Positions 4,825-45,709 of a DNA stretch of 55,134 nt are shown one piece after another. This DNA is from a virus. A program made the position numbers and the translations under genes. The stretch is from the IMG/VR virus record IMGVR_UViG_3300032294_001470, positions 1 to 55,134 of that record. One strand, 5' to 3'. How positions within the stretch are numbered: position 1 is the first letter of the stretch; each line of letters starts with the position of its first letter. The notes under the pieces were generated by a model that made no database searches, was not told where the DNA came from, and saw only the letters and a list, made by a program, of their open reading frames with translations.

Positions 4825-5508
4825 ATGAATTACGGACAAGAATTTCAATCGTATTACACGAAACATTTAGGTAAACCATCATCCCATTTGGATTACTTCG
4901 AAAAACAAATTGAATCCTCAATGACACCATACATCTTGGAAGAAAGAGAAATGAGAGTTACTCAAATGGATATCTTCTCAAGATTAATGAGAGACCGAGT
5001 GTTATGGGTTGCAGGACCTGTTGATGACAGAATGTCAACTATAGTTCAAGCTCAATTAATGTTCTTGGATTCTTCAGATAAATCGGACATTACAATGCAC
5101 ATTGATAGTCCCGGAGGAAGTGTGAAATCAGGTTTATCTATGGTAGATGTGATGGAATACATCTCTTGTGACATCAGAACCGTGAATACTGGTATGGCGG
5201 CATCGATGGGTTCAGTATTGTTAGGTGCGGGAACCAAAGGAAAGCGTTCATCATTGAGATTTTCCAAAACAATGTTACATCAATCATCAGGAGGTGCTGG
5301 TGGAAATATTCAAGACGCTCGTATCAATATGATTGAGTGGGAAAAGACTAATAATATTCTTTTTGAATTATTAGGTTCTTATTGTGGCAAATCTGCAGAA
5401 CAAGTTATGACAGATGCAACTCGAGATTTATGGTTGGACGCTCAAGAAGCGTTAGATTATGGTATTATCGATGAAATTGTTAAACCAAAAGAAAAAGTGA
5501 GTAAGTAA
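4825..5508 (+). CDS. clpP: ClpP-type serine protease (phage)
   Basis: The 227-residue protein carries the ClpP core: HIDSPGGSV (oxyanion region, about 92-100), GMAASMG with the likely nucleophile S127, H152 in TMLHQ, and D201 in TRDLW, so the triad looks intact. The N-terminal 50 residues are longer than in cellular ClpP. ClpP forms tetradecameric chambers that degrade proteins fed by AAA+ unfoldases. In phages, ClpP-fold proteases can instead act as prohead maturation proteases. With many [LIV]-x-E-Q sites in neighbouring proteins, a role in virion processing is possible, although the T4-type protease with glutamate specificity is a different fold. A strong terminator follows. Confidence 0.88.
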   Translation: MNYGQEFQSYYTKHLGKPSSHLDYFEKQIESSMTPYILEEREMRVTQMDIFSRLMRDRVLWVAGPVDDRMSTIVQAQLMFLDSSDKSDITMHIDSPGGSVKSGLSMVDVMEYISCDIRTVNTGMAASMGSVLLGAGTKGKRSSLRFSKTMLHQSSGGAGGNIQDARINMIEWEKTNNILFELLGSYCGKSAEQVMTDATRDLWLDAQEALDYGIIDEIVKPKEKVSK

Positions 5509-5641: not shown

Positions 5642-6316
5642 TCATGTAGTTCCTGGAACTACAGAACTACCAGTACTTTTTAATTTTTCCGCGACTTTTT
5701 GAGCATTACCGGTAAACTTACCAAGCATGTTACAAACCATATCTCCAAACCCTTTTTCAATACCTTTAATAAATTCAGTACTGGTTAACGCATCTCCCAT
5801 ACTCTGTCTTAAAAATACATAACCCGGTGAGTTTAACCCTTTAGCGTCCTGTATTTGCATAAACACCGCCTCTGAAATAGATTGAGCAATTAATTTAGTC
5901 ATTATTTTACAATCATTAAGTCCTCGTATGAATTCTGCAGTATTTTTAGTTAACAATGATATAATAAAATTTGTAAAATAACCCTCACCAAACCATGGAA
6001 CTAATATTCCTTTCAACACAGGTTCTACAAATGTTTGAATTGCATTACCAAACCATCCACCAAATAATGAACTTAAGATGTTCCCAAAATTTTGTTCAGA
6101 AATCAATCCAGTGTTTTGTAAATAAGAAAGCTCTTGTATAAATTTAGTACTTATTTTAAGTTGTTGTTTATTTGACAATTTTTTAAAATCCTCTTCACTA
6201 TTAATACCCTCAAGTATTATAGATATTCTATTTTTGACCAATTTTTGTTCAATCAAAAGTTTTTCTTTTTGTTCTTTAATTTCAATTAAAGATTTTTTCA
6301 CTTTTTTATTTAACAT
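5642..6316 (-). CDS. Leader-block protein, hydrophobic/glycine-rich (candidate virion protein)
   Basis: The 224-residue product has a charged helical N-terminus containing IKEQ (13-16) and LIEQ (21-24). A region rich in Gly, Phe and Trp follows (about 78-125), with amphipathic or weakly hydrophobic segments but no classical signal peptide. It is the last gene of a six-gene minus-strand block (10486 to 5642) with very short gaps. The shared E-Q sites and the membrane-active look suggest a protein packaged in the head and ejected, but homology is not recognised. Confidence 0.75.
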   Translation of the reverse strand: MLNKKVKKSLIEIKEQKEKLLIEQKLVKNRISIILEGINSEEDFKKLSNKQQLKISTKFIQELSYLQNTGLISEQNFGNILSSLFGGWFGNAIQTFVEPVLKGILVPWFGEGYFTNFIISLLTKNTAEFIRGLNDCKIMTKLIAQSISEAVFMQIQDAKGLNSPGYVFLRQSMGDALTSTEFIKGIEKGFGDMVCNMLGKFTGNAQKVAEKLKSTGSSVVPGTT

Positions 6317-6326
6317 AATACTTTTA

Positions 6327-7235
6327 TTAGTTTAATCTCCATTTAGAATCTTCTCCTCGTCTTGAAGGTCCTCCAATACCACCTCGTAGTATCTCAACAT
6401 ATTTTTTTGTATTTTTTAAATCTACCCCTAAAAATCCTCCCCATTCACCTTCGTATGTGTTAACACACGATTGAACTACTTTTTTCATTGGGTCAAATGT
6501 TACTTGTGGGATATCTTTTTTAGTTTTAAATCCTTCGTAATATGTGTCAATTGCGTTTTTACAGATTGATTTATTAATGGTCTGTGATTTAGAAATATCT
6601 TCAAATTTTGTAGATATTTTCCCTCCTTCTTTAGCGATATCAGATGGTGACCACCACATTGTTATTCCGTTTGGTGGGAAAAATTTTTCACTACCCGGTA
6701 CTTTCATTTCTTTGTAAGAACCTGAAGCAATTTCATCAGGAGTTAAGTCTTTTTCCTCTTTATAACCTAAATTAACCGCTTTATCAATAAATGCCTGTTT
6801 TTGAACCTCTAATTTTCCTTGCTCTGATTTTTTTTCAGCATCTAATTTTTCTTGCTCTGATTTTTTTTGAGCCTCTAAATTTTGTTGTTCCTTCATTTTT
6901 GGACAATCCCATTTTTGACTGATAATTTCAAATTTACCTAAATCATTTAACATGCCAATGGCATTATCAATAAAAAAATAACCAAATTTACCAGGATTTT
7001 TTTTACTTTCTTGTTTAATAGCCCATTGTCTATTAGGTTCTGTAAATTTAGTTTTTATAACAGGGGAATTTTGATTAAAACACCCATAACCCCTTATTTT
7101 TTCTAATTGAGTATTAATAGGTATTTGTTCTGTTGATGTTGTAGAAGTTGAAGGATTACCTTGTTCTTTAACTAGTCTATGTTGATTAAGTATATCAGTT
7201 ATTTCACTTTCACTTAAAATAAATTTATTTTTCAT
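6327..7235 (-). CDS. Leader-bearing protein with charged repeat helix (candidate virion protein)
   Basis: The 302-residue product opens with the leader FILSESEITDILNQHRLVKE and then Q25, a VKEQ site. A Thr/Ser-rich linker follows, then a globular part (about 45-115), a coiled coil with K-S-E-Q repeats (about 118-150), and a C-terminal domain with several Cys and Trp residues. It starts 3 bp after the gene at 7239-8291. The related leader I-L-N-Q-H occurs in the protein at 11460-13397. Function unknown; virion targeting is inferred. Confidence 0.75.
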   Translation of the reverse strand: MKNKFILSESEITDILNQHRLVKEQGNPSTSTTSTEQIPINTQLEKIRGYGCFNQNSPVIKTKFTEPNRQWAIKQESKKNPGKFGYFFIDNAIGMLNDLGKFEIISQKWDCPKMKEQQNLEAQKKSEQEKLDAEKKSEQGKLEVQKQAFIDKAVNLGYKEEKDLTPDEIASGSYKEMKVPGSEKFFPPNGITMWWSPSDIAKEGGKISTKFEDISKSQTINKSICKNAIDTYYEGFKTKKDIPQVTFDPMKKVVQSCVNTYEGEWGGFLGVDLKNTKKYVEILRGGIGGPSRRGEDSKWRLN

Positions 7236-7238
7236 TTT

Positions 7239-8291
7239 TTAAAAATTTTCAGGGTTAATAGTATTATCCGGAGCTTCTATCTCTTCAGGTTTGACCGGTG
7301 GTGTGGTAACAGGTGGTTTATTGGTGTTATTTTGACCACATACATTAATGGTTATTTCAGTGGTAATTGAATTTCCATCATATCCTTTATTAATTAACGC
7401 TTGTTGTGTTTTTGGACCAAATTTCCCATCAGGTGTAACTCCTAAACATTCTTGAACTTTAGCAATTGTCTCATTTTTACATCTAAATTTAATTGGGTAT
7501 ACCTCAGGACAACTTTTATATTGACTTGTTCTTGGTTGTGGTGCTGGTTGTGGAGACGGAGTTGTTTCTTCAGTATCTACAACATCCTCAACATCGCCAT
7601 CATTAAAATAATAATAAAGAAGTGCAATAACACCAATACTTAAACCCGCACCTATACCCCACTTTTTGAGTGCAGTCCAAGTACTTCGGGATTCAACAGG
7701 AGGTTTAGGAATATTTGCAATAGCATCATCAATATCTGTTGGTTTTACAGGTACATTTTTTGGTAAGTTTTTATTTGCTATCTTTACCGCAATTTCATCG
7801 GCAATTGTTGGGTCGTATCCTTTTCTGATTAAATCATTTTTAATTTTTTGACCTGACATGTTAGGGAATTTTTTAAATGATAAGTTAGCTGCCTTATCAG
7901 TCAAACTCTTTCTTAGAGGACCAGTTATTCTACCTTTTTTTAACAATGCTTTAGCAATAGGGCCAATTTGGGATGTCTTTAAAGTACCTTTAGCCATTGC
8001 TGTTGCTATTTCATCACCACTTCTGAACCCTGCTTGTGCCGCAACATCGTCTAAAAATTTAATACCTTGTAAGTATTTGGCATTTTTAGCTTGTTTAAGA
8101 GACGCAATTAATGCCTCATCCGCAGTTCCAAACAAAGACGTTAAAAATGTTTTAACAGGTTGTTCAGTTAATAAAGAACCATTAGAAACAAAAGTTTTAT
8201 TACTTATTAAATTTTCACTTAATGTTGCTTTTGTGTTATATAACATTAGTAATTTTGTTTTATTAAGTTCTTCAAGAATTATGTTTTTCAT
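7239..8291 (-). CDS. Membrane-anchored peptidoglycan-binding-domain protein (candidate virion protein)
   Basis: The 350 residues contain an N-terminal helical leader ending in LTEQ (41-44), a long basic alpha-helical region (about 45-200), one transmembrane helix (about 211-228), an acidic then Pro-rich linker, and a PG_binding_1-like domain (about 260-318) with the typical LGVTPDGKFGPKTQQAL motif. Three cysteines in the last domain may form disulfides. The layout suits a protein that spans or docks on the cell envelope during genome entry. A peptidoglycan-binding module linked to a leader strengthens the case for a virion component. Confidence 0.8.
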   Translation of the reverse strand: MKNIILEELNKTKLLMLYNTKATLSENLISNKTFVSNGSLLTEQPVKTFLTSLFGTADEALIASLKQAKNAKYLQGIKFLDDVAAQAGFRSGDEIATAMAKGTLKTSQIGPIAKALLKKGRITGPLRKSLTDKAANLSFKKFPNMSGQKIKNDLIRKGYDPTIADEIAVKIANKNLPKNVPVKPTDIDDAIANIPKPPVESRSTWTALKKWGIGAGLSIGVIALLYYYFNDGDVEDVVDTEETTPSPQPAPQPRTSQYKSCPEVYPIKFRCKNETIAKVQECLGVTPDGKFGPKTQQALINKGYDGNSITTEITINVCGQNNTNKPPVTTPPVKPEEIEAPDNTINPENF

Positions 8292-8314
8292 ATTTATTAT
8301 TTTTTGTTTTTTTA

Positions 8315-9712
8315 TTACAGTTCAAACGTTACTTCATCGTCCTCAAACGTTTTCGCAAATTCTGATTCGGCTTTAGCTTGAGCTTGTTTTAATTGTTCAT
8401 CAGTTATTTCACCACTCTCAACTTTTGGTTGACAACTTAAACCATCAAGTCCTAGTGCCGCACATATTCCGGTAGTAAGTAAAAATGAAGACCCCATTCT
8501 ATCAACAATCACACCTCCCGGTGGTATTGGTTTAGGTGGTTTTTTCGCCCAAATGTCTTTAACTTTAGCTTTAAATCCTGATTTAGGTGTGGTAGGGTTT
8601 GGAGTTTTATTTTTTGCTGCTGCCACCATTTCATCCACCATCTGAGACACTTTTTGTTGAACTTTCGTTCCCCAAGATTGTAGAGATTTTATTCCTAATT
8701 TTTCACCTAAGAATTTAGCTGCTTGACCTATTAAGTTTTTTAAAGTACCAATTCCTGATTTTAATAAATTAAATGCTTTAAGAAAAATCCCTCCTTTACT
8801 TACTGCAGCCGTACCTAATTGTGCAAAAGATTTTATTCCTGCAAATGCGGTTTTAAATATTTTCCCCATTGAAGGTGCTAATATTGCAATTGCACTCGCC
8901 ATAATACTTATAATCTCCCAACCTTGACCTGTTAATCCCTTATAAGTGTCCCATAACAATAATGAACCAAAAATAACCCCATTTGTTATTTGACCAATAA
9001 CTGGTATTAAAGAAACACCCGTTAATGCTGCGGTACCTGAAGCACTGAAGACTAATTTTCTCATTCCTTCCATAATACATTCAATACCACTTTTAGTACA
9101 ATTCCATACGTCGGCAATTTTAGTTTTTACATACTCCCATACTTTACCGGCACTTTCTTTAGCCCACTGAGTAAACCCTTTTTGTTTAATCAATTTATCT
9201 TGGTCTTTAACCCATTCAGCACCTTGTTTAACAAGGTCTTTACCATAATTGTAAACATTTTTAGCACCTGTTTTAGCAATATCACCTACTTTATTAGCAA
9301 TATTTACAGGATTGTACCATTCACCTTGTTCAATAATTAATTTTATTGAATTCCACGAATCCACAACTCTTTGTTCTATAAGTAATTTATCAACTGACTC
9401 GTTAATTAATAATAATTTATTACCATGATTACTTTCCCATTCTTGAATTATTTTTATTGTATTTTCAGGTTTTAATGTTTCAATTAAAAAATACAAAAAT
9501 CTTCTTGGTTCGGATGTATATTCTGTTAATGAAATTGAACCTGTTTTATATTTGAAATTAAAATTTTCATTTATAATATCTAAAGCAATATTTAATGATT
9601 CAAAAGTATAAGGTACAAAGTTCCTTCCATTCAAATCATTTTGTTCAAAAGACATTTTTACAACTCCTTTATCGGTAAACAAATACCCCATATTTACAGA
9701 CATCCCTATCAT
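8315..9712 (-). CDS. Large leader-block protein with membrane segments (candidate virion/ejection protein)
   Basis: The 465-residue product starts at an ATG overlapping the TAA of the upstream gene (TAATG), which supports this start and translational coupling. E-Q sites occur at LIEQ (111-114) and IIEQ (126-129). A Lys-rich helical region follows, then two or three hydrophobic glycine/alanine-rich segments (about 215-300), more amphipathic helices, and an acidic tail. There are no catalytic motifs. Hydrophobic stretches deep inside a soluble-looking protein recall phage inner-head proteins that insert into membranes; this is inference. Confidence 0.78.
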   Translation of the reverse strand: MIGMSVNMGYLFTDKGVVKMSFEQNDLNGRNFVPYTFESLNIALDIINENFNFKYKTGSISLTEYTSEPRRFLYFLIETLKPENTIKIIQEWESNHGNKLLLINESVDKLLIEQRVVDSWNSIKLIIEQGEWYNPVNIANKVGDIAKTGAKNVYNYGKDLVKQGAEWVKDQDKLIKQKGFTQWAKESAGKVWEYVKTKIADVWNCTKSGIECIMEGMRKLVFSASGTAALTGVSLIPVIGQITNGVIFGSLLLWDTYKGLTGQGWEIISIMASAIAILAPSMGKIFKTAFAGIKSFAQLGTAAVSKGGIFLKAFNLLKSGIGTLKNLIGQAAKFLGEKLGIKSLQSWGTKVQQKVSQMVDEMVAAAKNKTPNPTTPKSGFKAKVKDIWAKKPPKPIPPGGVIVDRMGSSFLLTTGICAALGLDGLSCQPKVESGEITDEQLKQAQAKAESEFAKTFEDDEVTFEL

Positions 9713-10227
9713 TATATTTTACCGTATTTTAGTTCATCACTTGTTTTAACTTTACAAATACTAATATTTGTTTTACCTTGGCACCATGTCTCTATTTGTT
9801 CCGAAACTCTTTTAACTACCTCATTCATTTTCAATCTTCCAAACAATTCCCCATTTAATGCGTCAAATAATGATTCACCTCCTATTTCAGGGTACGATTT
9901 AATAATTGCCATTGAACTGGCGATGTCTTTAAAACCGTTGTCTAAAACATATGTTATTCCCTTAAAATCGGTTCCCATTCCACTAACAGCCTTTTTAATT
10001 TGGGTTGCAGCATTTTTAACATTTGCGGTTGGGTTGCCAAAATTTATGTTTTTAACTTGTGATGGGTTCTTCATTAGTGACTTTGTAACAGTTTTAAAAT
10101 ATTCCGGGTTGTTAACTTGTTCACTAAGTAATTTTCTATTTTCATTTAAAGTTTTTGACATATCATAAGACATCATCAATTTAACTCTCTCTAACGCTTC
10201 TTGCGGACTATAATTAGGTTGTACCAT
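9712..10227 (-). CDS. Leader-block protein (candidate virion protein)
   Basis: The 171-residue product begins with an amphipathic helix (residues 7-33) and reaches LSEQ at 34-37. The rest resembles annexin-like or helical repeats in feel (VSGMGTDFKGITYVLDNG), but I cannot name a family. Its stop overlaps the next start. An ATATTTAT motif lies 13 nt before the ATG. Confidence 0.75.
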   Translation of the reverse strand: MVQPNYSPQEALERVKLMMSYDMSKTLNENRKLLSEQVNNPEYFKTVTKSLMKNPSQVKNINFGNPTANVKNAATQIKKAVSGMGTDFKGITYVLDNGFKDIASSMAIIKSYPEIGGESLFDALNGELFGRLKMNEVVKRVSEQIETWCQGKTNISICKVKTSDELKYGKI

Positions 10228-10240
10228 ATTTTTTTTATTT

Positions 10241-10248
10241 ATAAATAT
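10241..10248 (-). promoter_or_regulatory. ATATTTAT motif (candidate late promoter)
   Basis: Exact octamer on the coding strand 13 nt before the start at 10227, in the short gap after the gene at 10256-10486. Confidence 0.45.
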
Positions 10249-10255
10249 CTTTTAT

Positions 10256-10486
10256 CTACCAAATTTGATTTGCGGAACCTCTTTTTATTCCCGTATTCCA
10301 TTTTTGTCCCGATTTCATTAATGGGTTTGCTTTACCTCTAGTTAAAGGATATGAGTCGGCCCATTTTGGGACACTTCCTCCACCTCCGGATGATGCGGAA
10401 GCATCATCTTGTTCGTCTAACTCATCTTTAAAGCCACCGGAATTTTTATTAAAAAAATCTATTAAAAAATCTACATCCAAATTCAT
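10256..10486 (-). CDS. Small leader-block protein
   Basis: The 76-residue product has a short hydrophobic/acidic helix, LDEQ at 23-26, an acidic then Ser/Gly-rich linker, and a basic C-terminal half with Trp and Gly (PKWADSYPLTRGKANP). It is the first gene of the minus-strand block and has an ATATTTAT motif 4 nt upstream. If cleaved after LDE it would release a basic peptide of about 50 residues. Function unknown. Confidence 0.65.
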   Translation of the reverse strand: MNLDVDFLIDFFNKNSGGFKDELDEQDDASASSGGGGSVPKWADSYPLTRGKANPLMKSGQKWNTGIKRGSANQIW

Positions 10487-10490
10487 AACA

Positions 10491-10498
10491 ATAAATAT
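10491..10498 (-). promoter_or_regulatory. ATATTTAT motif (candidate late promoter)
   Basis: Exact octamer ending 4 nt before the start codon at 10486, at the head of the 10486-5642 block. Confidence 0.5.
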
Positions 10499-10534: not shown

Positions 10535-11068
10535 ATGAAAAATTTATATATCCTTTTAATTTTGTTTTTATTCACTTCTTGTGAGAAATTTTCCCTTGAA
10601 ACCAGTGATGTTACTTTAAGTGGAAAATATGTTGTTTCAAAACTTGACATTACCAATGTCGACCAAAGTCAAACGAGAGATTCTTTATATACTATCGGTG
10701 ACACATATCTTAATAAAATGATGTCAGACCCTTTTGATTCAATGGTTATCAATCGTTTTTATATCCATTTTGATTACTCAACAGTACGAATGAATTTACA
10801 GGGAGTTAATCCAACGGGTAGGGATATATGGGAATATGGTTCATCACCCAATGAAATATTTTATAGAATCATCGGTAATAACACTTACAATAACGGGTTC
10901 TTACAATTTGATTATGTTGCGTCAGATAAATCCGTTAGGACTTTAACATTCTTAATTGAGGATGATGGATTTGAATCTCTTCAATTGAAAAGTGCTGGTG
11001 GTTGGTTTAGAGGAAAATTTGGTGAGAAACAAGTAATGACATTATATCTCACCAGAGTTGGACCTTAA
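10535..11068 (+). CDS. Predicted lipoprotein
   Basis: The 177 residues start with a lipoprotein signal peptide (MKNLYILLILFLFTSCEKFS); Cys16 would be lipidated. The mature part is beta-rich and resembles small Bacteroidota lipocalin-like or hypothetical lipoproteins, but no family is assigned. A host-type promoter with no room for a leader suggests early expression. A surface lipoprotein from a phage could block superinfection; that is only a suggestion. Confidence 0.8.
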   Translation: MKNLYILLILFLFTSCEKFSLETSDVTLSGKYVVSKLDITNVDQSQTRDSLYTIGDTYLNKMMSDPFDSMVINRFYIHFDYSTVRMNLQGVNPTGRDIWEYGSSPNEIFYRIIGNNTYNNGFLQFDYVASDKSVRTLTFLIEDDGFESLQLKSAGGWFRGKFGEKQVMTLYLTRVGP

Positions 11069-11370
11069 TATAATTCTGTCTCAGGTAGTTCGTTTGAATT
11101 TACTTCGTAATATTCATTCAAAAAAGATAACAACTCATCTTCATTTAATTGGGTGAAATAATTTCTTTCCCATAACTCATCTTCATCGATTTCATCTTCT
11201 AATAAAATTTTGTCTTCGGATTCTACAGAAAACCCGTATTCACTAGCAACCGAAAAATTTATATTTCCGGTTCTTATTACATCATCATCGTCTTCGATTG
11301 TTCTAAAAGAAACTTCCAATATGTTTGTTTCTTGGTTTAAAAAATATGATACTATTTCTTTAATTTCCAT
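11065..11370 (-). CDS. Hypothetical acidic protein
   Basis: The 101-residue product is very acidic, with many Asp-Glu runs and alternating beta-like strands. No signal peptide or membrane helix. It converges with the lipoprotein gene, overlapping it by 4 bp. Not recognised. Confidence 0.65.
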   Translation of the reverse strand: MEIKEIVSYFLNQETNILEVSFRTIEDDDDVIRTGNINFSVASEYGFSVESEDKILLEDEIDEDELWERNYFTQLNEDELLSFLNEYYEVNSNELPETELY

Positions 11371-11459: not shown

Positions 11460-13397
11460 TTAATTGAATTTATTAATTCTGTTGAACATCTCCGAAATTT
11501 TATTCTTTTGGGTAATAAATGATTCTTTCATATCAACATCAATTTCTTCCCAATCATCATCTTCAGAGTCATCTCCTTCAAAATCCCCACTATGTGTTGC
11601 AAATCCGAAATCATCTTCAGAGTCATATTCCTCCAATTCACTTTCATATGAAAATTCTTGGTAAGGACCTCCTTTACCTGGTCCCTCACTATCAAAATCA
11701 TATGCTCTTTTCATACTACCATAAATTCCTTGAGACCCTGAAACATCTTGTTCGTCCATTTCTTCTTCAATTTCATCGTCAGCCCATGCAGATTCCATAG
11801 TTTCATACATTTTTTCAGGGTCATATCCATACATGTCATCTTCATTAACCGGATATACACCTAATGGTCCGTTAGATTCAAAATCATATGCTGGTTGAAC
11901 ATCATCAACATCCATATCATCAACATTTCCCTCTTGTTCGTCTAAATCTGAGATATAATCCTCGACATCTCTATCTGGGAACAAGTAGTTTGATTTTTTT
12001 CCTCTAAATTTAAAATGAGGATTTGAATTATCCTCATAATCAATTCTATCCACGAATTCAATATCATCTTCATAATCAGGGTTATACTTTGGAAAGTATT
12101 TGTATTTACTACCTTTACTTAATTTGTCAACCTCAATTTCATCAAGATTCATATCTTCAAATCCATCATCTTCATTATCCGGGTCATCAACACCATCTTC
12201 AGTGTAAGATGATTCATAATCTTGGAAATCATTATCATCATCATAATATGGGTCATACATACTTCGGTCTTTATAATCGTCATTACTAACTTGTTCAGTT
12301 TTAATTTTTTTCATGTGATGAGCTTTTTCAAATGTCCCATAGTCGTTTCCACCACCTTCAACATAATCGAAATCACCTTTTGTTAAGTTCAAATCATGCA
12401 CATTATAAATGTCATCCAAATGTCCGGTTTCTTCCTCCATTCTTCCTGAACCACATTGCTCACAAACATTTTCTTTCATGGTGCCACCACATTGTTCACA
12501 AACTTCTTTGAGTTTATTTTTACCAATAATCACATCGTCAATAACAATTTGTTCTGTCCTATCTTTTCTTAAGTTTTTAAAGTCATTTTCTTTACCCTTA
12601 GTTTTACCACCAAGTACATCAATAACGACCATATCTTTTTCTTCGTTTCTATCTTTTCGTAAATTTTTTAATTTATCAGTAGTTTTACCACCAAGTACAT
12701 CATCACTATGTCTATATTTAGTTTTGTATGATGGCATGTCACGAGGCATTCTTAGTTCAGGATAATATTCTTCTTCATCGTCATCACCATAGTATGGGTC
12801 ATACATACTTCTGTCTTTATATTCTTCATCGTCATCATCACCTAAACCATATTTAGTATTACCATAGTCAATATCATCTTCAAAAGAATCTTCATAATCT
12901 CTATCACCCATCAACATGTCTTTTTCTCTTCTAGACATTTTAGAAAGGTTTTTATTACCGAACCTTGGGTGTCCGTCATCCATACCACCAAGTTCCATAA
13001 CTTCACCCTTCGCACCACATTGTTCGCAAGTCTCACCTTCTTTCATTTCACCACCACATTGTTCGCACATATTACCTTCTTCCATTTCCGACTCTTCCAT
13101 ATGTCCATAATTACATTCAGAACAAACACCATCCATAATCATTGCACCACACTCATCACAAACTTCGTTATTCTCAACTTGTTCGTTAATTCCCATGTTT
13201 GTGTATTTCTTAACTTCACCCTTATTATTAACAACCATACCATCTTTATCGCCAGCAAAATCATAAACATATAATGGTTGAGTGTTTGATACCTGTGGTT
13301 GCATTGTTTGGTATCCGTTATATAAACTTTTATGTTGGTTCAAAATATCTTGTTTTTCACTTGCAGATAATTGACCTAATCCAAAATAACCTCTCAT
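11460..13397 (-). CDS. Large acidic repeat protein with three zinc ribbons and leader
   Basis: The 645-residue product opens with a leader (LSASEKQDILNQHKSLYNG) like that of the protein at 6327-7235. Three CxxC..CxxC zinc-ribbon-like units follow: one CDECG..CSECN and two of the form CEQCGG..CEQCG (about 80-135 and 300-320). Between and after them lie acidic low-complexity repeats with copies of RSMYDPYY, VLGGKT and NLRKDR. Multiple D/T/N-E-Q sites are scattered through it. A highly acidic, repetitive, possibly multiply cleaved protein would suit a scaffold or internal head protein. No enzyme motif is seen; not matched to a family. Confidence 0.78.
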   Translation of the reverse strand: MRGYFGLGQLSASEKQDILNQHKSLYNGYQTMQPQVSNTQPLYVYDFAGDKDGMVVNNKGEVKKYTNMGINEQVENNEVCDECGAMIMDGVCSECNYGHMEESEMEEGNMCEQCGGEMKEGETCEQCGAKGEVMELGGMDDGHPRFGNKNLSKMSRREKDMLMGDRDYEDSFEDDIDYGNTKYGLGDDDDEEYKDRSMYDPYYGDDDEEEYYPELRMPRDMPSYKTKYRHSDDVLGGKTTDKLKNLRKDRNEEKDMVVIDVLGGKTKGKENDFKNLRKDRTEQIVIDDVIIGKNKLKEVCEQCGGTMKENVCEQCGSGRMEEETGHLDDIYNVHDLNLTKGDFDYVEGGGNDYGTFEKAHHMKKIKTEQVSNDDYKDRSMYDPYYDDDNDFQDYESSYTEDGVDDPDNEDDGFEDMNLDEIEVDKLSKGSKYKYFPKYNPDYEDDIEFVDRIDYEDNSNPHFKFRGKKSNYLFPDRDVEDYISDLDEQEGNVDDMDVDDVQPAYDFESNGPLGVYPVNEDDMYGYDPEKMYETMESAWADDEIEEEMDEQDVSGSQGIYGSMKRAYDFDSEGPGKGGPYQEFSYESELEEYDSEDDFGFATHSGDFEGDDSEDDDWEEIDVDMKESFITQKNKISEMFNRINKFN

Positions 13398-22808: not shown

Positions 22809-25217
22809 ATGAAATACATCTTAAATTTAGACAATGTGTCTTTGAAAGACATTAATATTGTTGGAGGAAAAAACGCATCATTAGGTGAAATGTTACAACA
22901 CCTAAAAAAATTAGAAATTAAAGTCCCTAATGGATTTGCAATAACTATTGATGGTTATTATGACTTCATAAAACATAATAACTTAGATAAACCAATCAGA
23001 GAACTTATTGGGAATCTAAAAGAAAATGACATTATTGAGCTTAGAAGAACCGGTTTAACGGTAAGACAATTAATTCGTAATGGAGTTTTTCCTGAACAAT
23101 TAAAAAACGAAATACAAACAAAATATCGTGAGTTGTCCGAAATTTATGGTCAAACAATGACTGATGTTGCGGTGAGGTCATCGGCAACTGCAGAAGATTT
23201 GCCCGATGCTTCTTTTGCGGGTCAACAAGAGACTTTCTTAAATGTTAGAGGTTCGGAATCAATCTTAGAATCAGTTAGAAATTGTTTTGCGTCTTTGTTC
23301 ACCGATAGAGCCATTTCATATAGAAATTCTTTTGGTTATGACCATTTCGATGTTGGGTTGTCGGTATGTATCCAAAAAATGGTCCGGTCAGATTTATCTT
23401 CATCCGGAGTCGCATTTTCATTAGACACAGAAAGTGGGTTTAAAGATGTTGTTATGATTAATGGTTCATATGGTTTAGGAGAAATGATAGTTCAAGGAAC
23501 AATATCACCAGATGAATTTATTGTTTTTAAACCATTATTGGAAAAAGGTTTTAGTTCCATAATTGAAAAAAAATTAGGGAATAAAGACCAAAAAATGATT
23601 TATGGTGAAGACCACGGCAAGTTAACCAAAATCGTTAATATTGATGATGAACATAGAAACAATTTTTGTATTAACGATAAACAAGTATTAGAAATCGCAA
23701 AATGGGTTACATCAATTGAAAAATACTACTCAGAATTAAAAGGACATTGGTGTCCAATGGATGTGGAATGGGCGATTGACGGATTAACTAATGAGTTATA
23801 TATTGTTCAGGCTAGACCTGAAACAATCCACTCAAGGAAAAAAAGAGATATATTAACCGAATATACAATTAATACTGAAAATTTAAAACCTATTGTTAAA
23901 GGTAGTGCTGTTGGAGATAAAATCACTAATGGAGAAGTAACTATTATGTATTCATTAGATGGTAGAGACGGGTCGTTAGATTGTTCTGAATTTGTTGAGG
24001 GAAGTGTCTTAGTAACTGATATGACAGACCCTGATTGGGAACCTATAATGAAAAAAGCGTCTGCGATTATAACAAATCGAGGAGGTAGGACATGTCACGC
24101 AGCGATTGTTGCAAGAGAAATGGGATTACCGGCAATTGTTGGAACAATGAATGCTACGGAAATATTAAAAAATAATCAAAAGGTGACGGTATCTTGTGGA
24201 GAAGGAGATGTTGGTTTTGTATATGATGGTTTCATTGATTATGAGAAAATTGAAACAAATTTGGACGATTTACCTGAAGTTTCAACACCAATTATGTTGA
24301 ATGTTGCATCTCCCGAAATCGCATTTAAGTTTTCAAATCTTCCAAACGCAGGTGTTGGTTTGGCAAGAGAAGAATTCATAATAAATAACTATATAAAAGC
24401 ACATCCAATGGCTTTATTAAAACATAAAGAAATTGGAGATGAGGAATTAACAAAACAAATTAATTCAATTATTAAAGGGTATGATGATGAAGAAACTTTC
24501 TTCATTAAAAAATTAAGTTATGGTATTGCAAGAATTGCCGCAGCGTTTTACCCCAATAAAGTTATTGTTAGACTTTCAGACTTTAAATCAAATGAATATA
24601 AAAATCTTTTAGGTGGGTCGTATTTTGAACCGGATGAAGAAAACCCAATGATTGGTTGGAGAGGAGCATCAAGATACTATTCCGACAAATATAAAGAAGC
24701 TTTTGGTATGGAAATTAAGGCAATAAAAAGAGTTAGGGAAAAAATGGGATTTGATAATGTCGTTGTTATGATACCTTTTTGTAGGACCATAGATGAGTTA
24801 TTGAAAGTTTATAAGGTTATGGAATCTTATGGGTTAAAACGAGGTGAGAAAGGGTTAGAAGTTTATTTAATGGCCGAATTACCATCAAACATTTTTATGG
24901 CGGAAGAATTTTCAGAATATGTGGACGGATTCTCAATTGGGTCAAACGATTTAACACAATTAGTGTTAGGTTTAGATAGGGATTCCGCACTTGTTTCTCC
25001 AATTTACGATGAAAGAAATCTTGCGGTTAAAAGAGCGATATCTCATTTAATAAAAATTGGAAAGAAAACAAATACGAAAGTTGGAATTTGTGGTCAAGGT
25101 CCGTCTGATTTCCCTGATTTCGCAGAATTCTTGGTAGAAGAAGGTATTGATAGTATCTCAATAACACCGGATTCATTATTAAAAACATTAAAAACTTTAA
25201 GTAAATTAAAAAAATAA
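22809..25217 (+). CDS. ppsA: Phosphoenolpyruvate synthase (pyruvate, water dikinase)
   Basis: The 802 residues match PpsA in length and order. An N-terminal ATP-binding domain has VGGKNASLGEM (18-28), AVRSSATAEDLPDASFAGQQ (121-140) and MDVEWA..YIVQARPET. The swivelling phosphohistidine domain has GGRTCHAAIVAREMGLPA with catalytic H430. The C-terminal PEP/pyruvate TIM barrel has FSIGSNDLTQLVLGLDRDSA and catalytic C761 in GICGQGPSD. PpsA makes PEP, AMP and phosphate from pyruvate, ATP and water. A complete copy in a phage would be an unusual auxiliary metabolic gene, feeding gluconeogenesis, sugar-nucleotide or aromatic precursors. Confidence 0.95.
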   Translation: MKYILNLDNVSLKDINIVGGKNASLGEMLQHLKKLEIKVPNGFAITIDGYYDFIKHNNLDKPIRELIGNLKENDIIELRRTGLTVRQLIRNGVFPEQLKNEIQTKYRELSEIYGQTMTDVAVRSSATAEDLPDASFAGQQETFLNVRGSESILESVRNCFASLFTDRAISYRNSFGYDHFDVGLSVCIQKMVRSDLSSSGVAFSLDTESGFKDVVMINGSYGLGEMIVQGTISPDEFIVFKPLLEKGFSSIIEKKLGNKDQKMIYGEDHGKLTKIVNIDDEHRNNFCINDKQVLEIAKWVTSIEKYYSELKGHWCPMDVEWAIDGLTNELYIVQARPETIHSRKKRDILTEYTINTENLKPIVKGSAVGDKITNGEVTIMYSLDGRDGSLDCSEFVEGSVLVTDMTDPDWEPIMKKASAIITNRGGRTCHAAIVAREMGLPAIVGTMNATEILKNNQKVTVSCGEGDVGFVYDGFIDYEKIETNLDDLPEVSTPIMLNVASPEIAFKFSNLPNAGVGLAREEFIINNYIKAHPMALLKHKEIGDEELTKQINSIIKGYDDEETFFIKKLSYGIARIAAAFYPNKVIVRLSDFKSNEYKNLLGGSYFEPDEENPMIGWRGASRYYSDKYKEAFGMEIKAIKRVREKMGFDNVVVMIPFCRTIDELLKVYKVMESYGLKRGEKGLEVYLMAELPSNIFMAEEFSEYVDGFSIGSNDLTQLVLGLDRDSALVSPIYDERNLAVKRAISHLIKIGKKTNTKVGICGQGPSDFPDFAEFLVEEGIDSISITPDSLLKTLKTLSKLKK

Positions 25218-25996: not shown

Positions 25997-26617
25997 ATGG
26001 AATTTTTAATTAACGAATCTCAATTGAGAGTTATCTTACAAGAACAAGACCAGTCAAAAATGACTGACTATATGAAAGAATTATATTCATTCACGAGTAA
26101 TATCATCAATAAAGTTAGAAAAACATACGGATTAAATTTGAAGTTGTTACTAACTTGGGGGGCATCGGTTGGTGGTTTAGTGATGCCATTAGATAATTTT
26201 ATCAGAAGTGGTAGGTTTGATATCACGGATGAACAAGTGGCGTTACTTTTGGTTGGGGTTGCTTGCACATATTTCTACGACAATGAAAACGCATTAAAAA
26301 AGATTTTATCGAAAATAAAAGAAGAGGGTCTTGAGGATATTTTTAAAGAAGTTCTATTAAAAGGTAAAAATCTTAAGGATTCGTTCACCAAATTCATTAA
26401 ATCTTCTAAAGTTACCATAAATTCAACTTTGGATATCATAACATATGCGTTTTTGATTCCAATAATAACGGACATTCAGTCTTCAATTACTTCCGGGGAA
26501 GATATCCAAACAGTATCAATGAAAGTCGCCAAAAGATTGGTTGCTTCGGGAGTTGTCTTGGTTGGTCAGGTCGTTTTAACTGAAATTATAAAAAAAATTA
26601 TCAAGAAACTTTCCTAA
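25997..26617 (+). CDS. Leader-bearing membrane-associated protein (candidate virion protein)
   Basis: The 206-residue product starts with the leader EFLINESQLRVILQEQ; the LQEQ site is at 14-17. Afterwards it has several long hydrophobic helices (about 49-65, 80-97, 145-160, 180-200), some likely membrane-inserted. No catalytic motif. It overlaps the convergent gene by 4 bp. Leader plus hydrophobic helices parallels the 5.6-10 kb block. Confidence 0.72.
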   Translation: MEFLINESQLRVILQEQDQSKMTDYMKELYSFTSNIINKVRKTYGLNLKLLLTWGASVGGLVMPLDNFIRSGRFDITDEQVALLLVGVACTYFYDNENALKKILSKIKEEGLEDIFKEVLLKGKNLKDSFTKFIKSSKVTINSTLDIITYAFLIPIITDIQSSITSGEDIQTVSMKVAKRLVASGVVLVGQVVLTEIIKKIIKKLS

Positions 26618-29406: not shown

Positions 29407-30033
29407 TTACCAAGAATTTGAAGACGATAGTCCTAATTGTTTAGCGTAACGACCAACTGAACAACTCCAATATCCTGCCGTTGTTCTATCTTTCTTTTGG
29501 TCACATTTATGACGAGCCCTAAAAGACTTCGCAGCCTTTTTATTTGCATTTTTAATTCTTAATCCAGGGTCACCAAAAGTAACTTTTTTAATTCCACCAC
29601 CCGGTGATTTTACATAAACCGCAAACTTTTTAGGACCACCAGGTGTTCTGAATGGTTTGTTTAATTTAACATTCTTTCCACGATGTTTGGCTTCAGATAA
29701 AATATCTTCTTCAGTCTCGACCTCATAAATAAATGGTGCGTCCAAGTATATGTATTCCTTACCTATTTTCACTTTTTTACCTAAATCGGATTCTATCATC
29801 ATAGTATCCTCTTCATTTAATTTTATATTTCCTTCGGTATATAATTTTCTTACCTCATTAACTAAATCAAAATAACTTTCAGAGTAAACTCTAAAAACAT
29901 TATCAGTTAATGTTAGACCATTGTCTATATGATATTGTAGAGCATCTGAAACTTTAACATTTTCAGTTAATACTAAAGTTCTATTTAATTGTTCTTCTAA
30001 TGTTTCTCTAATTAGTTTGCGTAAATTCATCAC
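29407..30033 (-). CDS. Leader-bearing protein with DUF5872-like basic C-terminal domain
   Basis: The 208 residues begin with MMNLRKLIRETLEEQLN, a leader with LEEQ at 12-15. The C-terminal 80 residues carry VTFGDPGLRIKN, KSFRARHKCDQKKDRTTAGY and a W-S-C motif. Similar segments occur in phages and large DNA viruses, and I believe the family is called DUF5872. Its conserved Cys, His, Lys and Arg may bind nucleic acid. The leader and an ATATTTAT motif upstream support a late, possibly packaged protein. Confidence 0.72.
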   Translation of the reverse strand: MMNLRKLIRETLEEQLNRTLVLTENVKVSDALQYHIDNGLTLTDNVFRVYSESYFDLVNEVRKLYTEGNIKLNEEDTMMIESDLGKKVKIGKEYIYLDAPFIYEVETEEDILSEAKHRGKNVKLNKPFRTPGGPKKFAVYVKSPGGGIKKVTFGDPGLRIKNANKKAAKSFRARHKCDQKKDRTTAGYWSCSVGRYAKQLGLSSSNSW

Positions 30034-30069: not shown

Positions 30070-31173
30070 TTATTGGGAAGAAGATGATAAGTCAACATCA
30101 CCTAATACAATATACCTTAAATTTAACACAATTGGTGATGTTGTAAAATTAACATCAAAAAAAGATGATGAATTTATAGTATTAAAATTATTCAATGTTA
30201 TGGTTGAATAGGTCGATGATGTGAACCATAACACTTCGGTTAATGGATTCATCCCCGTTAAACTTCTTGCAAGTAGATATCCATCATCAATATAAACTCT
30301 TCCATTTTTGTTAATATCACCAGCTCTCATCTTCGGTCCGGTATTCAATACCAATCCCGGGTTTAATACCGGAGGAACGCTAACATTTCTCGCTTCGTTC
30401 AATAATAAAGATAAATCGTTGTTAGTTAATGTTGTTGAGAATGATGGGATTATCCTATAAGTCATATTATATTCGTTTGGTTTCAATGAGTAATTTCCAC
30501 TTATATCAACATTACTACTATCAATTAATGTGGTGGTTGCGCCATTAATTTTGAATAATTTTAATTTTGGTCGATTAACCAACCCTGATGGTATGGAAAG
30601 ATTTCCACTTATTGTTTCGGTTGGGGGTAAGTTTGGATTTGGTTGGGCCCCAGCAATTGTGGTCTTAAAATCAAAAGTATTACCATAAGGATAAGTTCCA
30701 CATATTACAGGAGAACCGGAATATTGCATAATAAATCTCATAAAAACGGGTCCGTTAAAGACTGTCGTTGGAACAACAAATGTTGAAGTTATTGTTTTGG
30801 TTCCTGTCCAAGAAGTGTTGGTGCTATGAACTAATTCTCCAGCATCTGTTAAAACTCCATTCCCGTTAAAATCAATCCATAATTTGAAATATTCCATGTA
30901 ATTACCATTTGTAACTGCGGTATATGAAATGGATATGGTTTGACCTGCGGTAATGGTTGGGACTGCCGTTCCATTGGTGTAGTTAAAATAACCTGCCGGA
31001 TTACCTCCGGATGCTGCGGTAAATCCATTACTACCTGCATATGTTTGTCCGTTTATCGTAACACTGGAAACATACTCACAACAAAATGTTGTTGGGTGAC
31101 TAGTACATAATGAAGTTTGAGAGTGTACGAAACTACTTATCGATAATAAAATGAATAACAAATATTTCATCAT
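30070..31173 (-). CDS. Secreted GEVED-domain protein with dockerin-like segment
   Basis: The 367 residues carry a signal peptide (cleavage after VHS, before QTS), a GEVED-type beta domain (about 40-175; WIDFNGNGVLTDAGE), a carboxypeptidase-regulatory-like strand region (about 190-260), and a dockerin-like calcium loop (GDINKNGRVYIDDGY). It ends at YIVLGDVDLSSSSQ. The longer protein at 34437-36341 has the same last module (YFVLGDVDRTHSSP) but continues into further domains, so this one looks like a shortened paralogue without a sorting domain. It belongs to the seven-gene envelope cassette and overlaps the upstream gene by 4 bp. Confidence 0.8.
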   Translation of the reverse strand: MMKYLLFILLSISSFVHSQTSLCTSHPTTFCCEYVSSVTINGQTYAGSNGFTAASGGNPAGYFNYTNGTAVPTITAGQTISISYTAVTNGNYMEYFKLWIDFNGNGVLTDAGELVHSTNTSWTGTKTITSTFVVPTTVFNGPVFMRFIMQYSGSPVICGTYPYGNTFDFKTTIAGAQPNPNLPPTETISGNLSIPSGLVNRPKLKLFKINGATTTLIDSSNVDISGNYSLKPNEYNMTYRIIPSFSTTLTNNDLSLLLNEARNVSVPPVLNPGLVLNTGPKMRAGDINKNGRVYIDDGYLLARSLTGMNPLTEVLWFTSSTYSTITLNNFNTINSSSFFDVNFTTSPIVLNLRYIVLGDVDLSSSSQ

Positions 31174-32804
31174 AAATTAATTTTTGAACCAATTAGGAAA
31201 AACGAAAGAACCGGAAAGTCGGGATTGGTACTCGTGTTTAGTTTATAATTCATATTGACTTTAAATCTTTTTGAAAATTGGTAATCAACACTTGTCCCTA
31301 TAAAGGCACTGAATGTTCTGTCCGAAACACTGACTTTATCAACAGAGGAATACATCAATGGTGTGGATATTACATACAGTTCAGGTGAGAGTATCATTCT
31401 TTTCCCGACTTTAAATGGTTTAGTGTAAAATGCTGTCATCGCAGGACTTAAATATAAATTCACATCTTCAGGGCTTTTAGTAATAGAACCGCTAACATTA
31501 AACCCCGTAATTCCATATTTTCCTGCATTTAGAATCATACTATACCCTAAAAAACTCATAAGATTACCATATGAATAAACTCCAGTTAAATTCAAATTAT
31601 GAATTAATTTCAATTTTTTGTTCTTACTAAAGTGCATTTTGGTGTATCTCCCTGTTAATGCGAATTGTTTGAAATTTAACCAAATCATCGAGTTTAATCC
31701 CCAACTTGAGGTTCCAGTCATCGATGATTGTGACATTCCAACATTAATGATTGGTGTAAAACTTCTGTCCATATTTTGGGCACTTGTTAAATCAGATGAA
31801 ACTATGATTGGATTAGACCTACTATTACTTTTACCACCTCCTTTACTACCTCCTGAACCTTTATCATTGTTCGCATCAGTTGTCATTGTTGTTGTCACCG
31901 CAACTTCACTACCTTGACCACCTGTTTCACTACCTGTTTGACCACCTGTTTGACCACCTTCACTCTTGGTTGTTTCTTGAGTATTAGTTGAATTTGAAGT
32001 TGTTGATGTATTGGTTGTCTCTGTAGTGGTTGAGTTATTCTTTACACTTGGTCCACCATTCCCTTCAGTTTTTGTCGTATTATTTCCACTACCTTGACCA
32101 CCTGCTTGACCACCGCTTTTTGTTGTGATTGTTGTTGAATTTCCACCGCTTTTTGTTGTGATTGTTGTTGAATTTCCACCGCTTTTTGTTGTGCTTGTTG
32201 TTGAATTTCCTCCGACTTGTGTCGTATTTGTTGTTGAATTTCCTCCACCTTGTGTTGTACTTGTGGGTGATGGAGTATTATTCGAAGAAAAGACACTTGA
32301 GTTAAATGTTGACGGAAATGGGACGCCGGATGTAGAAATTGTTGGTGGTGGTTGTGAACTACTTTTTTTCTCATTTTTTTCATTTTTCGATGTTTTTTCA
32401 TCCGAATTTGAACTCAAATCCGTATTCACTAACATTCCTGATTCCGCGTTAACTTGTCCCATAATACTTCCTACTACACTTTGAATTGTGTTCCCAATTA
32501 TTTGGGAGGTTATTTGGTTTCTAATTATTGTTGTGGTTTGAATCGAACATGGTGTTAATCTCCTATATTCGGTATAGACTTGGTTAATCCAAGTGGCAAA
32601 AACACCACTGATAACATCATCAGCGGTGAAATATTTTTGTTGACCTAAAAATGACACTAATGAACCATTTCCACTTTGTATTGGAAGGTTGAATTGTGTC
32701 ATTTCTTTAGTGCAAGGGTCTACAAAAGTGTAGGTAAATGTTTGACCAATCGCGGTGATATTTGTAAATAAAAGTATCAATAAGATTGGTAATATTTTTA
32801 ACAT
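31170..32804 (-). CDS. Exported outer-membrane protein with Ser/Thr/Asn/Gly repeat region
   Basis: The 544-residue product has a signal peptide, an N-terminal domain (about 25-135), a low-complexity Ser/Thr/Gly/Asn region (about 140-330) with five 11-residue units of GGNSTTxTTKS type, and a C-terminal beta-barrel-like region (about 340-544). Long disordered repeats joined to a barrel suggest a surface-exposed stalk. No sorting domain is seen. It lies between the GEVED protein and the CsgG-like gene, so it may be part of one export or assembly unit. Confidence 0.78.
   Translation of the reverse strand: MLKILPILLILLFTNITAIGQTFTYTFVDPCTKEMTQFNLPIQSGNGSLVSFLGQQKYFTADDVISGVFATWINQVYTEYRRLTPCSIQTTTIIRNQITSQIIGNTIQSVVGSIMGQVNAESGMLVNTDLSSNSDEKTSKNEKNEKKSSSQPPPTISTSGVPFPSTFNSSVFSSNNTPSPTSTTQGGGNSTTNTTQVGGNSTTSTTKSGGNSTTITTKSGGNSTTITTKSGGQAGGQGSGNNTTKTEGNGGPSVKNNSTTTETTNTSTTSNSTNTQETTKSEGGQTGGQTGSETGGQGSEVAVTTTMTTDANNDKGSGGSKGGGKSNSRSNPIIVSSDLTSAQNMDRSFTPIINVGMSQSSMTGTSSWGLNSMIWLNFKQFALTGRYTKMHFSKNKKLKLIHNLNLTGVYSYGNLMSFLGYSMILNAGKYGITGFNVSGSITKSPEDVNLYLSPAMTAFYTKPFKVGKRMILSPELYVISTPLMYSSVDKVSVSDRTFSAFIGTSVDYQFSKRFKVNMNYKLNTSTNPDFPVLSFFLIGSKINL
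32111..32275 (-). repeat. 33-bp coding minisatellite, five units
   Basis: Units start at 32111, 32144, 32177, 32210 and 32243; the first three are nearly identical and the last two diverged. Each encodes 11 residues of the protein at 31170-32804. Confidence 0.85.
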
Positions 32805-32806
32805 TT

Positions 32807-33520
32807 TTAATGAGTAAAGATTTGTTTTTTAATCATCCTTGTCACGATTTTAGAACATGCACTTTCCAATGACTTTTTGGTTGTTATACCAATTGTTGAT
32901 TGATTGAATTTTACATCAGTCAAATTATCGTCATTTAATAAAGTCATTTCTCTTGTTGTTGACGCTTCTCCTAATCCTGATGCGGTGAAATAAGCTCCGG
33001 TTTCAGCATTAACAAATTTAACTTGGAGTCCTAACCGAGTTGTCAAGGTATTCTTGACACTTCCTTTAAGTTTTATGGTTTCATCTTCACTAACACTAAA
33101 ATCATAAACCTCAACATAAACAAAGTAGTGAGCCAATCTAATCTTACCTCTACCATTTAATGTGTCCTGTGAGATTCCTGCTTGAGATGCTTGAAATTGT
33201 TTCACCATTCTGTTCTTAATTTCCGTTTTGTCTTCAGTAAAAATAAATCTGTCGGTAAATTCCAAATATTCGACTACGATGTTTGTCAAACCTAACCCAA
33301 CCCTTTTATCTTTTAACTCGGGATATGACTCATATAATTCAGGAGTTACTCCAATGTTTAACAATTGAATTGGTATCGGTTTTCCGTTATATTCAGGTAA
33401 TGTGTCCATTGACGCATTCTTTTCGAAAGATGCTCGGTATTGTTCTGTCTTAATGGTTCCAACTTGAGAGTACGCCACAAAACTTATCATACTCGCTAAA
33501 ATCAATATTATTTTTTTCAT
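32807..33520 (-). CDS. CsgG-like outer-membrane secretion protein
   Basis: ATG at 33520 gives a signal peptide (MKKIILILASMISFVAYSQ) and 237 residues. The arrangement GLTNIVVEYLEFTDRFIF, a long helix, then DETIKLKGSV..LGLQVKFVNAETGAYF, and a C-terminal helix is typical of CsgG/HfaB proteins, which form large outer-membrane channels for curli subunits. CsgG homologues are known in some marine T4-like phages. Here it is flanked by a barrel protein and membrane proteins. It lacks a clear lipobox Cys, unlike E. coli CsgG. Moderate confidence. Confidence 0.68.
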   Translation of the reverse strand: MKKIILILASMISFVAYSQVGTIKTEQYRASFEKNASMDTLPEYNGKPIPIQLLNIGVTPELYESYPELKDKRVGLGLTNIVVEYLEFTDRFIFTEDKTEIKNRMVKQFQASQAGISQDTLNGRGKIRLAHYFVYVEVYDFSVSEDETIKLKGSVKNTLTTRLGLQVKFVNAETGAYFTASGLGEASTTREMTLLNDDNLTDVKFNQSTIGITTKKSLESACSKIVTRMIKKQIFTH

Positions 33521-33521
33521 A

Positions 33522-34109
33522 TTATTCTTCAATTGGTTTAATTAGTCCACAAACCAAACATTCTTCGTCACCATCACCATCTGAGTCACCCCAAACATGT
33601 TGACAATTTCTGTGTGGAAAATATTCGTCAATAACACCATCATTATCGAAATCTAATCCGTCCATAACACCATCTCCATCTTCATCAACTTCAACACCAA
33701 TTTTTGTAACTTGGTCATTTACTTGGACAGGTTGTCCAACTTCTTCACTTGTCGGTAAAACTAATGGTTCTATTGACATTGGAACGATTGGGTTACTTGG
33801 CATATCTGCCGTGTTTGAAAGAGATGTACCATCCTCCTCATCCATTTTCTGGACTAGCATTTTATCTTTATCGGTATCACTGAACCAGTAATCGATAATT
33901 TTACCATAAGAACCAATAAATGCACCTAATAAAAGAAGTAGTAATTCTTTCCACTCGGTTGACATTGGTGTTTTCCACATTATGGCTCCGAAGATTCCTC
34001 CTATAATAAGGATAAACCCACCTAATACCATGGCAGTAATATACCATCTTCTTTTCATCATCGAATTTAGAAGTTCTTTAAATCCTGTTGCTTGCTGATT
34101 GTTTACCAT
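33522..34109 (-). CDS. Membrane protein with Asp-rich calcium-loop repeats and zinc-like Cys/His
   Basis: The 195 residues have two transmembrane helices (about 22-45 and 53-70), a Pro-rich linker, then thrombospondin-3-like loops (DEDGDGVMDG, DFDNDGVIDE, DSDGDGDEE) that should bind calcium. A C-terminal H-R-N-C-x2-H..C-x2-C may bind zinc. This domain mix is uncommon. It overlaps its upstream neighbour by 7 bp. It may anchor or sense in the periplasm; unknown. Confidence 0.72.
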   Translation of the reverse strand: MVNNQQATGFKELLNSMMKRRWYITAMVLGGFILIIGGIFGAIMWKTPMSTEWKELLLLLLGAFIGSYGKIIDYWFSDTDKDKMLVQKMDEEDGTSLSNTADMPSNPIVPMSIEPLVLPTSEEVGQPVQVNDQVTKIGVEVDEDGDGVMDGLDFDNDGVIDEYFPHRNCQHVWGDSDGDGDEECLVCGLIKPIEE

Positions 34110-34432: not shown

Positions 34433-34436
34433 TTTT

Positions 34437-43526: not shown

Positions 43527-43530
43527 AATT

Positions 43531-43538
43531 ATAAATAT
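43531..43538 (-). promoter_or_regulatory. ATATTTAT motif (candidate late promoter)
   Basis: Exact octamer ending 4 nt before the ATG at 43526. Confidence 0.45.
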
Positions 43539-43564
43539 AAATGTATTTATATTAAAATAATATA

Positions 43565-45678: not shown

Positions 45679-45682
45679 AGTA

Positions 45683-45709
45683 ATAAATATATCATTCAAT
45701 CATATTTAT
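45683..45709. promoter_or_regulatory. Divergent ATATTTAT motifs
   Basis: Minus copy at 45683-45690 serves the leader protein start at 45678. Plus copy at 45702-45709 ends 4 nt before the secreted nuclease start at 45714. Confidence 0.5.

Follow-up and report, generated by a model that had tools for sequence, protein, structure and literature searches.

We analysed a block of six genes in a fragment of an uncultured viral genome, a single linear IMG/VR record (IMGVR_UViG_3300032294_001470) of 55,134 bases with 31% GC, which in its full length is referred to below as the window. The genes, named g1 to g6 in the order of transcription, all lie on the minus strand and start with ATG (start sites were taken as the first ATG); the spacings from g1 to g6 are 28, −1, 23, 3 and 10 nucleotides (nt), and the element ATATTTAT stands at the head of the block (Table 1). 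A preliminary description of this DNA had outlined the six genes, had placed ATATTTAT in front of them and had likened the set to a pilot-protein module that crosses the envelope at infection. The limits of the genes, their spacings and the position of the element were reproduced in full, with TATTTAT occurring far above chance.

Table 1. Coordinates of the genes and elements discussed in the text. Positions refer to the window, except for phage immuto; an arrow marks the candidate cleavage position, with the number of the residue before it; aa, amino acids; ORF, open reading frame.
Feature	Coordinates	Strand	Description
g1	10256..10486	−	76 aa; propeptide 1-25; LDE↓Q 25; conserved C-terminus GGGGSVPKWADxYPLTRGKAN...GSANQIW
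g2	9712..10227	−	171 aa; leader 1-36 = YSPQEALERVKLMMSYDMSKTLNEN..LLSE↓Q; LNE↓N 29, LSE↓Q 36; then annexin-like repeat about 74-132
g3	8315..9712	−	465 aa; long N-terminal region; LIE↓Q 113, IIE↓Q 128; hydrophobic segments 221-282
g4	7239..8291	−	350 aa; leader; LSE↓N 26, LTE↓Q 43; single hydrophobic segment 207-225; peptidoglycan-binding-like C-terminal domain
g5	6327..7235	−	302 aa; leader 1-24 = LSESEITDILNQHRLVKE↓Q; LSE↓S 9, VKE↓Q 24
g6	5642..6316	−	224 aa; all-helical model; LIE↓Q 23, ISE↓Q 74
Candidate late-promoter element ATATTTAT before g1	10491..10498	−	4 nt 5′ of g1 ATG
Candidate late-promoter element ATATTTAT before g2	10241..10248	−	from TATTTAT upstream scan
Leader gene upstream of g1	11460..13397	−	LSASEKQDILNQHKSLYNGY ... 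INE↓Q at 72; own candidate late promoter; kept in many relatives
Acidic gene of ~100 aa between leader gene and g1	11065..11370	−	conserved; without leader
Lipoprotein-like gene (FLFTSCEK)	10535..11068	+	inside cassette, opposite strand; kept in relatives
ClpP protease gene	4825..5508	+	converges on cassette in relatives
Leader-bearing ORF outside block	25997-26617	+	related leader
Leader-bearing ORF outside block	29407-30033	−	related leader
Leader-bearing ORF outside block	43233-43586	−	related leader
Leader-bearing ORF outside block	45178-45699	−	related leader
Leader-bearing ORF outside block	47040-47402	−	related leader
Leader-bearing ORF outside block	47897-48445	−	related leader
Leader-bearing ORF outside block	48899-49318	−	related leader
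Leader-bearing ORF outside block	49868-50119	−	related leader
Leader-bearing ORF outside block	51984-52262	−	related leader
Leader-bearing ORF outside block	53439-53855	−	related leader
Leader-bearing ORF outside block	54560-55003	−	related leader
Immuto leader protein	NC_055915 1803-2318		
Immuto leader protein	NC_055915 117631-118632		
Immuto leader protein	NC_055915 118632-118931		

The preliminary description had recognised no homology. This holds for the curated collections: comparison of the six proteins with Pfam, PHROGs and NCBIfam gave no family above the cut-off and no homology to known ejection proteins; among annotated phages there was neither a near nucleotide relative of the window nor a protein match for g1, g3, g6 or a slot protein, as introduced below (all searched); and no relatives of g1 appeared in the bacterial and archaeal genomes searched. 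Metagenomic viral contigs, however, do contain homologues. The IMG/VR contigs with homologues of the cassette number at least 95 and include several that come from T4-like phages of 120-326 kb in the bS21/Bacteroidetes group; a g1 profile led to at least 95 viral contigs and a g6 profile to 35 contigs. All six genes are present in a contig of 74.5 kb (G001), with 90% identity for g3 and 66% for g4, and the prohead protease of this contig led to larger relatives, including a contig of 309 kb (G008). In seven of ten records of the relatives bS21 is present, and T4-like head genes, genome size and GC are similar to those of bS21-encoding Bacteroidetes phages. The relatives of the window belong to that group or adjoin it (Chen et al. 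2022, PMC9723584); the host, assigned from the published lineage of the relatives, is probably a member of the Bacteroidota. Structural genes of the group are strongly expressed late in lake water (PMC9723584); the sections consulted there make no mention of the cassette, the leaders or the TATTTAT promoter.

In most of 80 loci the usual order is a leader gene, a gene of ~100 aa, (a lipoprotein gene on the opposite strand), g1, one or more slot genes, g5, g6 and a convergent ClpP gene. The slot is variable and holds one to three proteins of about 260 to 1015 aa. Where relatives have a single slot protein, its start matches g2 and its end matches g4, while in the window g2 and g4 are separate genes with g3 in between; g3 itself is carried only by the window and G001, and an iterated profile search with it returned copies from G001 only. 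On these grounds the six genes are the local form of a cassette that has four parts, one of them a variable slot. The fixed set of six implied earlier is therefore not upheld; relatives usually have g1, the slot gene, g5 and g6.

In five of the six proteins (g1, g2, g4, g5 and g6) the N-terminus forms a candidate propeptide closed by [LIV]xE↓Q; g3 carries a site of this type twice, after residues 113 and 128. Homologues whose protein bodies have diverged down to about 30-40% identity show little or no variation in the E-Q pair, and EQ is better conserved than the residues adjacent to it. We observed [LIVMF]xEQ near the N-terminus in 47 of 47 g1 homologues (those with usable upstream sequence) and in all 33 homologues of g5. 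In g6, E74 is invariant among 32 sequences with identity of 32-72%; in the AlphaFold model of this protein (pLDDT, predicted local distance difference test, 71) this second site is located at a break between helices.

Enrichment of the motifs was assessed in 1081 ORFs from seven related contigs, with windows after internal methionines as a control. The contigs come from uncultured phages. Because the ORF calls followed a simple rule, the counts include some spurious ORFs. At residues 12-45, [LIV]xEQ was present in 85 of the 1081 ORFs and in 77 of 3347 controls (3.4-fold, p = 4e-15); at residues 5-11, [LI]TE was present in 44 ORFs and in 28 of 4032 controls (5.9-fold, p = 1.5e-13). The permuted motifs [LI]ET, [VFM]TE, [LIV]xDQ and non-LIV EQ showed no excess in this test, and [LIV]xQE showed a twofold one. 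As related ORFs are not independent, the test was repeated with one ORF per cluster of similar bodies, giving odds ratios of 10.4 (p = 2e-5) for [LIV]xEQ and 4.0 (p = 1e-3) for [LI]TE. Leader classes defined by position weight matrices (PWMs) were seeded from the same genomes, are partly circular and served descriptive purposes only; the initial regular expressions for these classes were too strict. One leader class occurs on seven or eight unrelated bodies and never past residue 60, and for this reason the leader appears to behave as a tag. No description of these leaders was found in the literature. The leaders and E-Q sites of the preliminary description are thus real and conserved, but they resemble capsid-targeting propeptides rather than secretion leaders and occur genome-wide instead of in the block alone.

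The strongest line of evidence that is independent of the leader motif is TATTTAT. Across the seven related contigs, 199 of the 878 ORFs have it at most 30 nt upstream, where chance would give 7.8. With the limit set at 60 nt, it stands before 29 of the 44 structural genes (portal, protease, scaffold, sheath, tube and neck) and before none of the 17 replication or nucleotide genes (p = 1e-6). Leader-bearing ORFs are also enriched for it (55/131 versus 199/884, p = 3.5e-6). Upstream of cassette homologues it is frequent for g1 (42/47) and the slot gene (33/46) and rare for g5 (5/33) and g6 (1/33), a pattern that suggests an operon transcribed from two starts, one ahead of g1 and one ahead of the slot gene. 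On this distribution ATATTTAT is taken to be a genuine late promoter, and the promoter evidence would place expression of the cassette late, together with the virion genes. Throughout the window and its relatives TATTTAT recurs as a phage-specific promoter element strongly tied to structural genes; it is unlike the T4 late promoter motif, TATAAATA.

A prohead protease of the Peptidase_S77 family is encoded by G001 (E = 6e-23) and by the large relatives. It aligns with T4 gp21, and residues H85, S140 and D168 of gp21 are conserved in the alignment; we take H85 and S140 to be catalytic. The T4 gp23 site E65↓A66 is invariant in the major capsid protein of the relatives, as LINE↓A, and their scaffold protein contains LSE↓Q. 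In T4, gp21 removes 65 N-terminal residues of gp23 (PMC9958956); short N-terminal sequences, cut by gp21, bring the internal proteins (IPs) and Alt into the head, and the cleavage sites of Alt are ITE-6 and LTE-619 (PMC5694885). The leaders described here resemble these IP and Alt sequences in the type of site predicted at their end.

The membrane and peptidoglycan segments noted earlier are real in g3 and g4 but unevenly distributed, and the PG_binding_3 match of g4 is below threshold (E = 0.0016). For a profile of the family formed by g2 and the slot proteins, annexins were the only significant matches (best E = 3e-7, GxGTDE region). Considered singly, 4 of 23 slot/g2 members match Pfam Annexin (best 1e-4), 7 of 23 match PG_binding_3 and single ones match glycine-zipper families. 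Other leader-bearing proteins of the relatives include one glucosaminidase-like and one M23-like protein. Taken together, the annexin-like, peptidoglycan-binding, glycine-zipper, hydrophobic and hydrolase-like features suggest a cargo that would act on membrane and cell wall.

Two further leader-bearing proteins were seen in G008. One (L099:13964-15094, minus strand) matches a TseH-like hydrolase, a type VI effector domain, with E = 3.3e-8; its gene lies a few genes from the major capsid gene, among several leader-bearing genes beside it. The other (L091:10330-11388, minus strand) has a hydrophobic hairpin like that of g3. The g3 hairpin was considered as a polymorphic-toxin PT-TG domain, and this was rejected, there being no match to PF14449.

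Given the conserved order, the late promoter, the propeptides fitting a gp21-type protease and the membrane- and wall-directed segments, head-packaged and possibly ejected proteins are the best reading of the block. Three independent lines point to head proteins of the virion: the propeptide sites, the S77 protease and capsid site of the relatives, and the late promoter. We consider it likely that the block is a late cassette of head-internal proteins of a T4-like large phage, targeted by propeptides, cut by an S77 protease and most probably ejected. That the products are internal to the head and processed is highly probable; that they are ejected is slightly favoured. What the sequence shows directly are the genes and the order in which they are kept, the conserved sites, the late promoter and, in the relatives, the protease and the capsid site; from these we infer that the products are targeted to the capsid, cleaved, ejected and active on the envelope, as follows. 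TATTTAT would drive late transcription of the cassette, and an N-terminal propeptide similar to the T4 capsid-targeting sequences would carry each protein into the prohead core. There the gp21-type S77 protease would cleave behind [LIV]xE, in most cases with Q as the following residue. The processed proteins would remain with the DNA inside the head and most probably exit with it; once ejected, they may help the DNA through the host envelope or act on the envelope, with the glycine-zipper or hydrophobic segments, the annexin-like repeat and the peptidoglycan-binding-like domain as the putative envelope-acting parts.

A number of observations speak against such a cassette. The S77 protease was found only in the relatives and not in the window, which has no head genes and, like G001, is a fragment. 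The P1′ residue differs, being Q in the leaders and A in the capsid protein. No short leader is present in g3, whose propeptide would be 113-128 aa long. The annexin and peptidoglycan-binding matches are weak for individual sequences; the AlphaFold models of g6 and g2 (the latter with pLDDT 68) gave no fold match with E<1, and annexin is absent among the fold matches of the g2 model. Synteny with structural genes, proposed earlier as a check, was not found: in G008 the head genes lie at 192-209 kb and the block at 246-249 kb, about 37 kb apart. Most head proteins of phage SPN3US are uncleaved (PMC10052503), so that cleavage cannot be concluded from a site alone. The literature search yielded no virion proteomics for these phages.

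The same side of the balance holds a role confined to the core. The products could be prohead core or scaffold helpers like T4 gp67 and gp68, which would be targeted to the prohead and cut there, would shape the large head and would be degraded or retained without ever being ejected. The protease motif and the late promoter would be identical in that case, g6 has an all-helical model and a pair of conserved sites, and the slot composition differs between phages. Still, the glycine-zipper or hydrophobic segments and the annexin-like and peptidoglycan-binding-like domains fit a scaffold poorly, and other tagged proteins resemble wall hydrolases; we regard a core-only role as unlikely. It is quite improbable that the genes encode late lysis or envelope-remodelling proteins that remain unpackaged in the producing cell and whose leaders have nothing to do with head maturation. 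Such proteins would suit the late promoter and the peptidoglycan-binding-like domain, and the neighbouring ClpP could process them, but the six proteins have no signal peptides, and the conserved Glu site with L, I or V at P3 is of the gp21 type and also that of the capsid protein of the same phages.

Weak matches to tape-measure profiles (E = 0.0037 for g3 and E = 0.0004 for one slot homologue) could point to tail or baseplate proteins, e.g. relatives of envelope-piercing tape-measure or hub proteins. These matches are partial and limited to helical or hydrophobic stretches, while the tail sheath, tube and hub genes of the relatives are located elsewhere, and g3 was not assigned as a tape-measure protein. 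We also know of no T4 tail protein that is a gp21 substrate, and a tail origin seems very improbable to us. That the leader motif arises by chance or from the composition of AT-rich, Lys/Glu-rich proteins deserves hardly any credence: the motif is indeed short, small ORFs are many and the seed-based PWM scans have the circularity mentioned above, yet most permuted motifs are not in excess, windows after internal methionines give much lower values and EQ is more strongly conserved than its neighbours.

Judged by sequence features, the favoured cassette of head-internal proteins would be of the kind of T4 IPI-IPIII and Alt (gp21, Peptidase S77). Shared features are an N-terminal propeptide ending in a site of the [LI]xE type, a gp21-type protease and a gp23-type capsid protein in the relatives, late expression (here predicted) and cargo bodies that are not homologous. 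Unlike the T4 system, the cassette has propeptides of 24-128 aa, of several classes and usually with Q at P1′; there are far more tagged proteins per genome, the cargo includes wall- and membrane-directed domains, and no sequence homology to IPs or Alt was detected. The phiKZ-like E proteins (SPN3US gp47, gp53 and gp54) similarly bear long propeptides with several cleavage sites on head proteins; gp47 has a transmembrane segment and the E-protein products are thought to be ejected (PMC5694885). In contrast to the cassette motif [LIV]xE, their motif is AxE or SxE; the host group differs, and the searches made revealed no homology. The comparison with pilot proteins of podoviruses (T7 gp14/15/16, P22 gp7/16/20) made in the preliminary description stands in part: there is a conserved late cassette of co-located genes with membrane- and wall-directed segments, but it carries protease-type propeptides and is not placed beside portal and tail genes as the classical modules are.

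One could speculate further that the leaders serve generally as an address tag: short N-terminal leaders of several classes, which the prohead protease would cut, would load tens of unrelated proteins into the heads of Bacteroidota jumbo phages, making the virion a protein-injection device. The cargo, readable from the genome and including a hypervariable slot in a conserved cassette, would consist of wall hydrolases, membrane and annexin-like proteins and small unknowns. This extension is tentative; we see it as possible without yet calling it probable. For most genes of large uncultured phages the function is unknown, and a head-cargo tag together with the TATTTAT promoter would place many such genes in the virion from sequence alone. 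If the tag is true, the long-standing question of what proteins accompany the DNA into the host would become testable in an abundant group of lake phages. For the Bacteroidota, a phylum where phage injection is poorly understood, new capsid-targeting tags and envelope-crossing proteins would become available as well.

Related leaders (e.g. MKKIVRLTEADLTRIVKRVIKEQ, MKKIIITESQY and MGTKFIITEQEKEEIKKLYLIEQ) begin many proteins of the window outside the block, most of them downstream of TATTTAT. The isolated Flavobacterium phage immuto (NC_055915) has a different shared leader, FDLKKFLVENKLTxNSKxLxE, on several proteins, two of them encoded just before the terminase; this phage could serve as a culturable test system.

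Of the neighbouring genes, the leader gene upstream of g1 encodes a very acidic protein of 645 aa with repeated CxxC zinc-ribbon-like motifs, whose length is highly variable among relatives. The window ClpP is closest to ATP-dependent ClpP, and its gene is convergent with the cassette in most relatives. ClpP was set aside as the processing protease, given this affinity and the P1 Glu of the S77 kind in the motif. Farther away, at 30070-36341 on the minus strand, successive genes encode proteins that look secreted and show signal peptides, a GEVED domain and a Por_Secre_tail type IX secretion signal; the phage seems to use type IX secretion of the host. A complete pyruvate phosphate dikinase-like gene, metabolic and unusual in a phage, is located at 22809-25217 on the plus strand.

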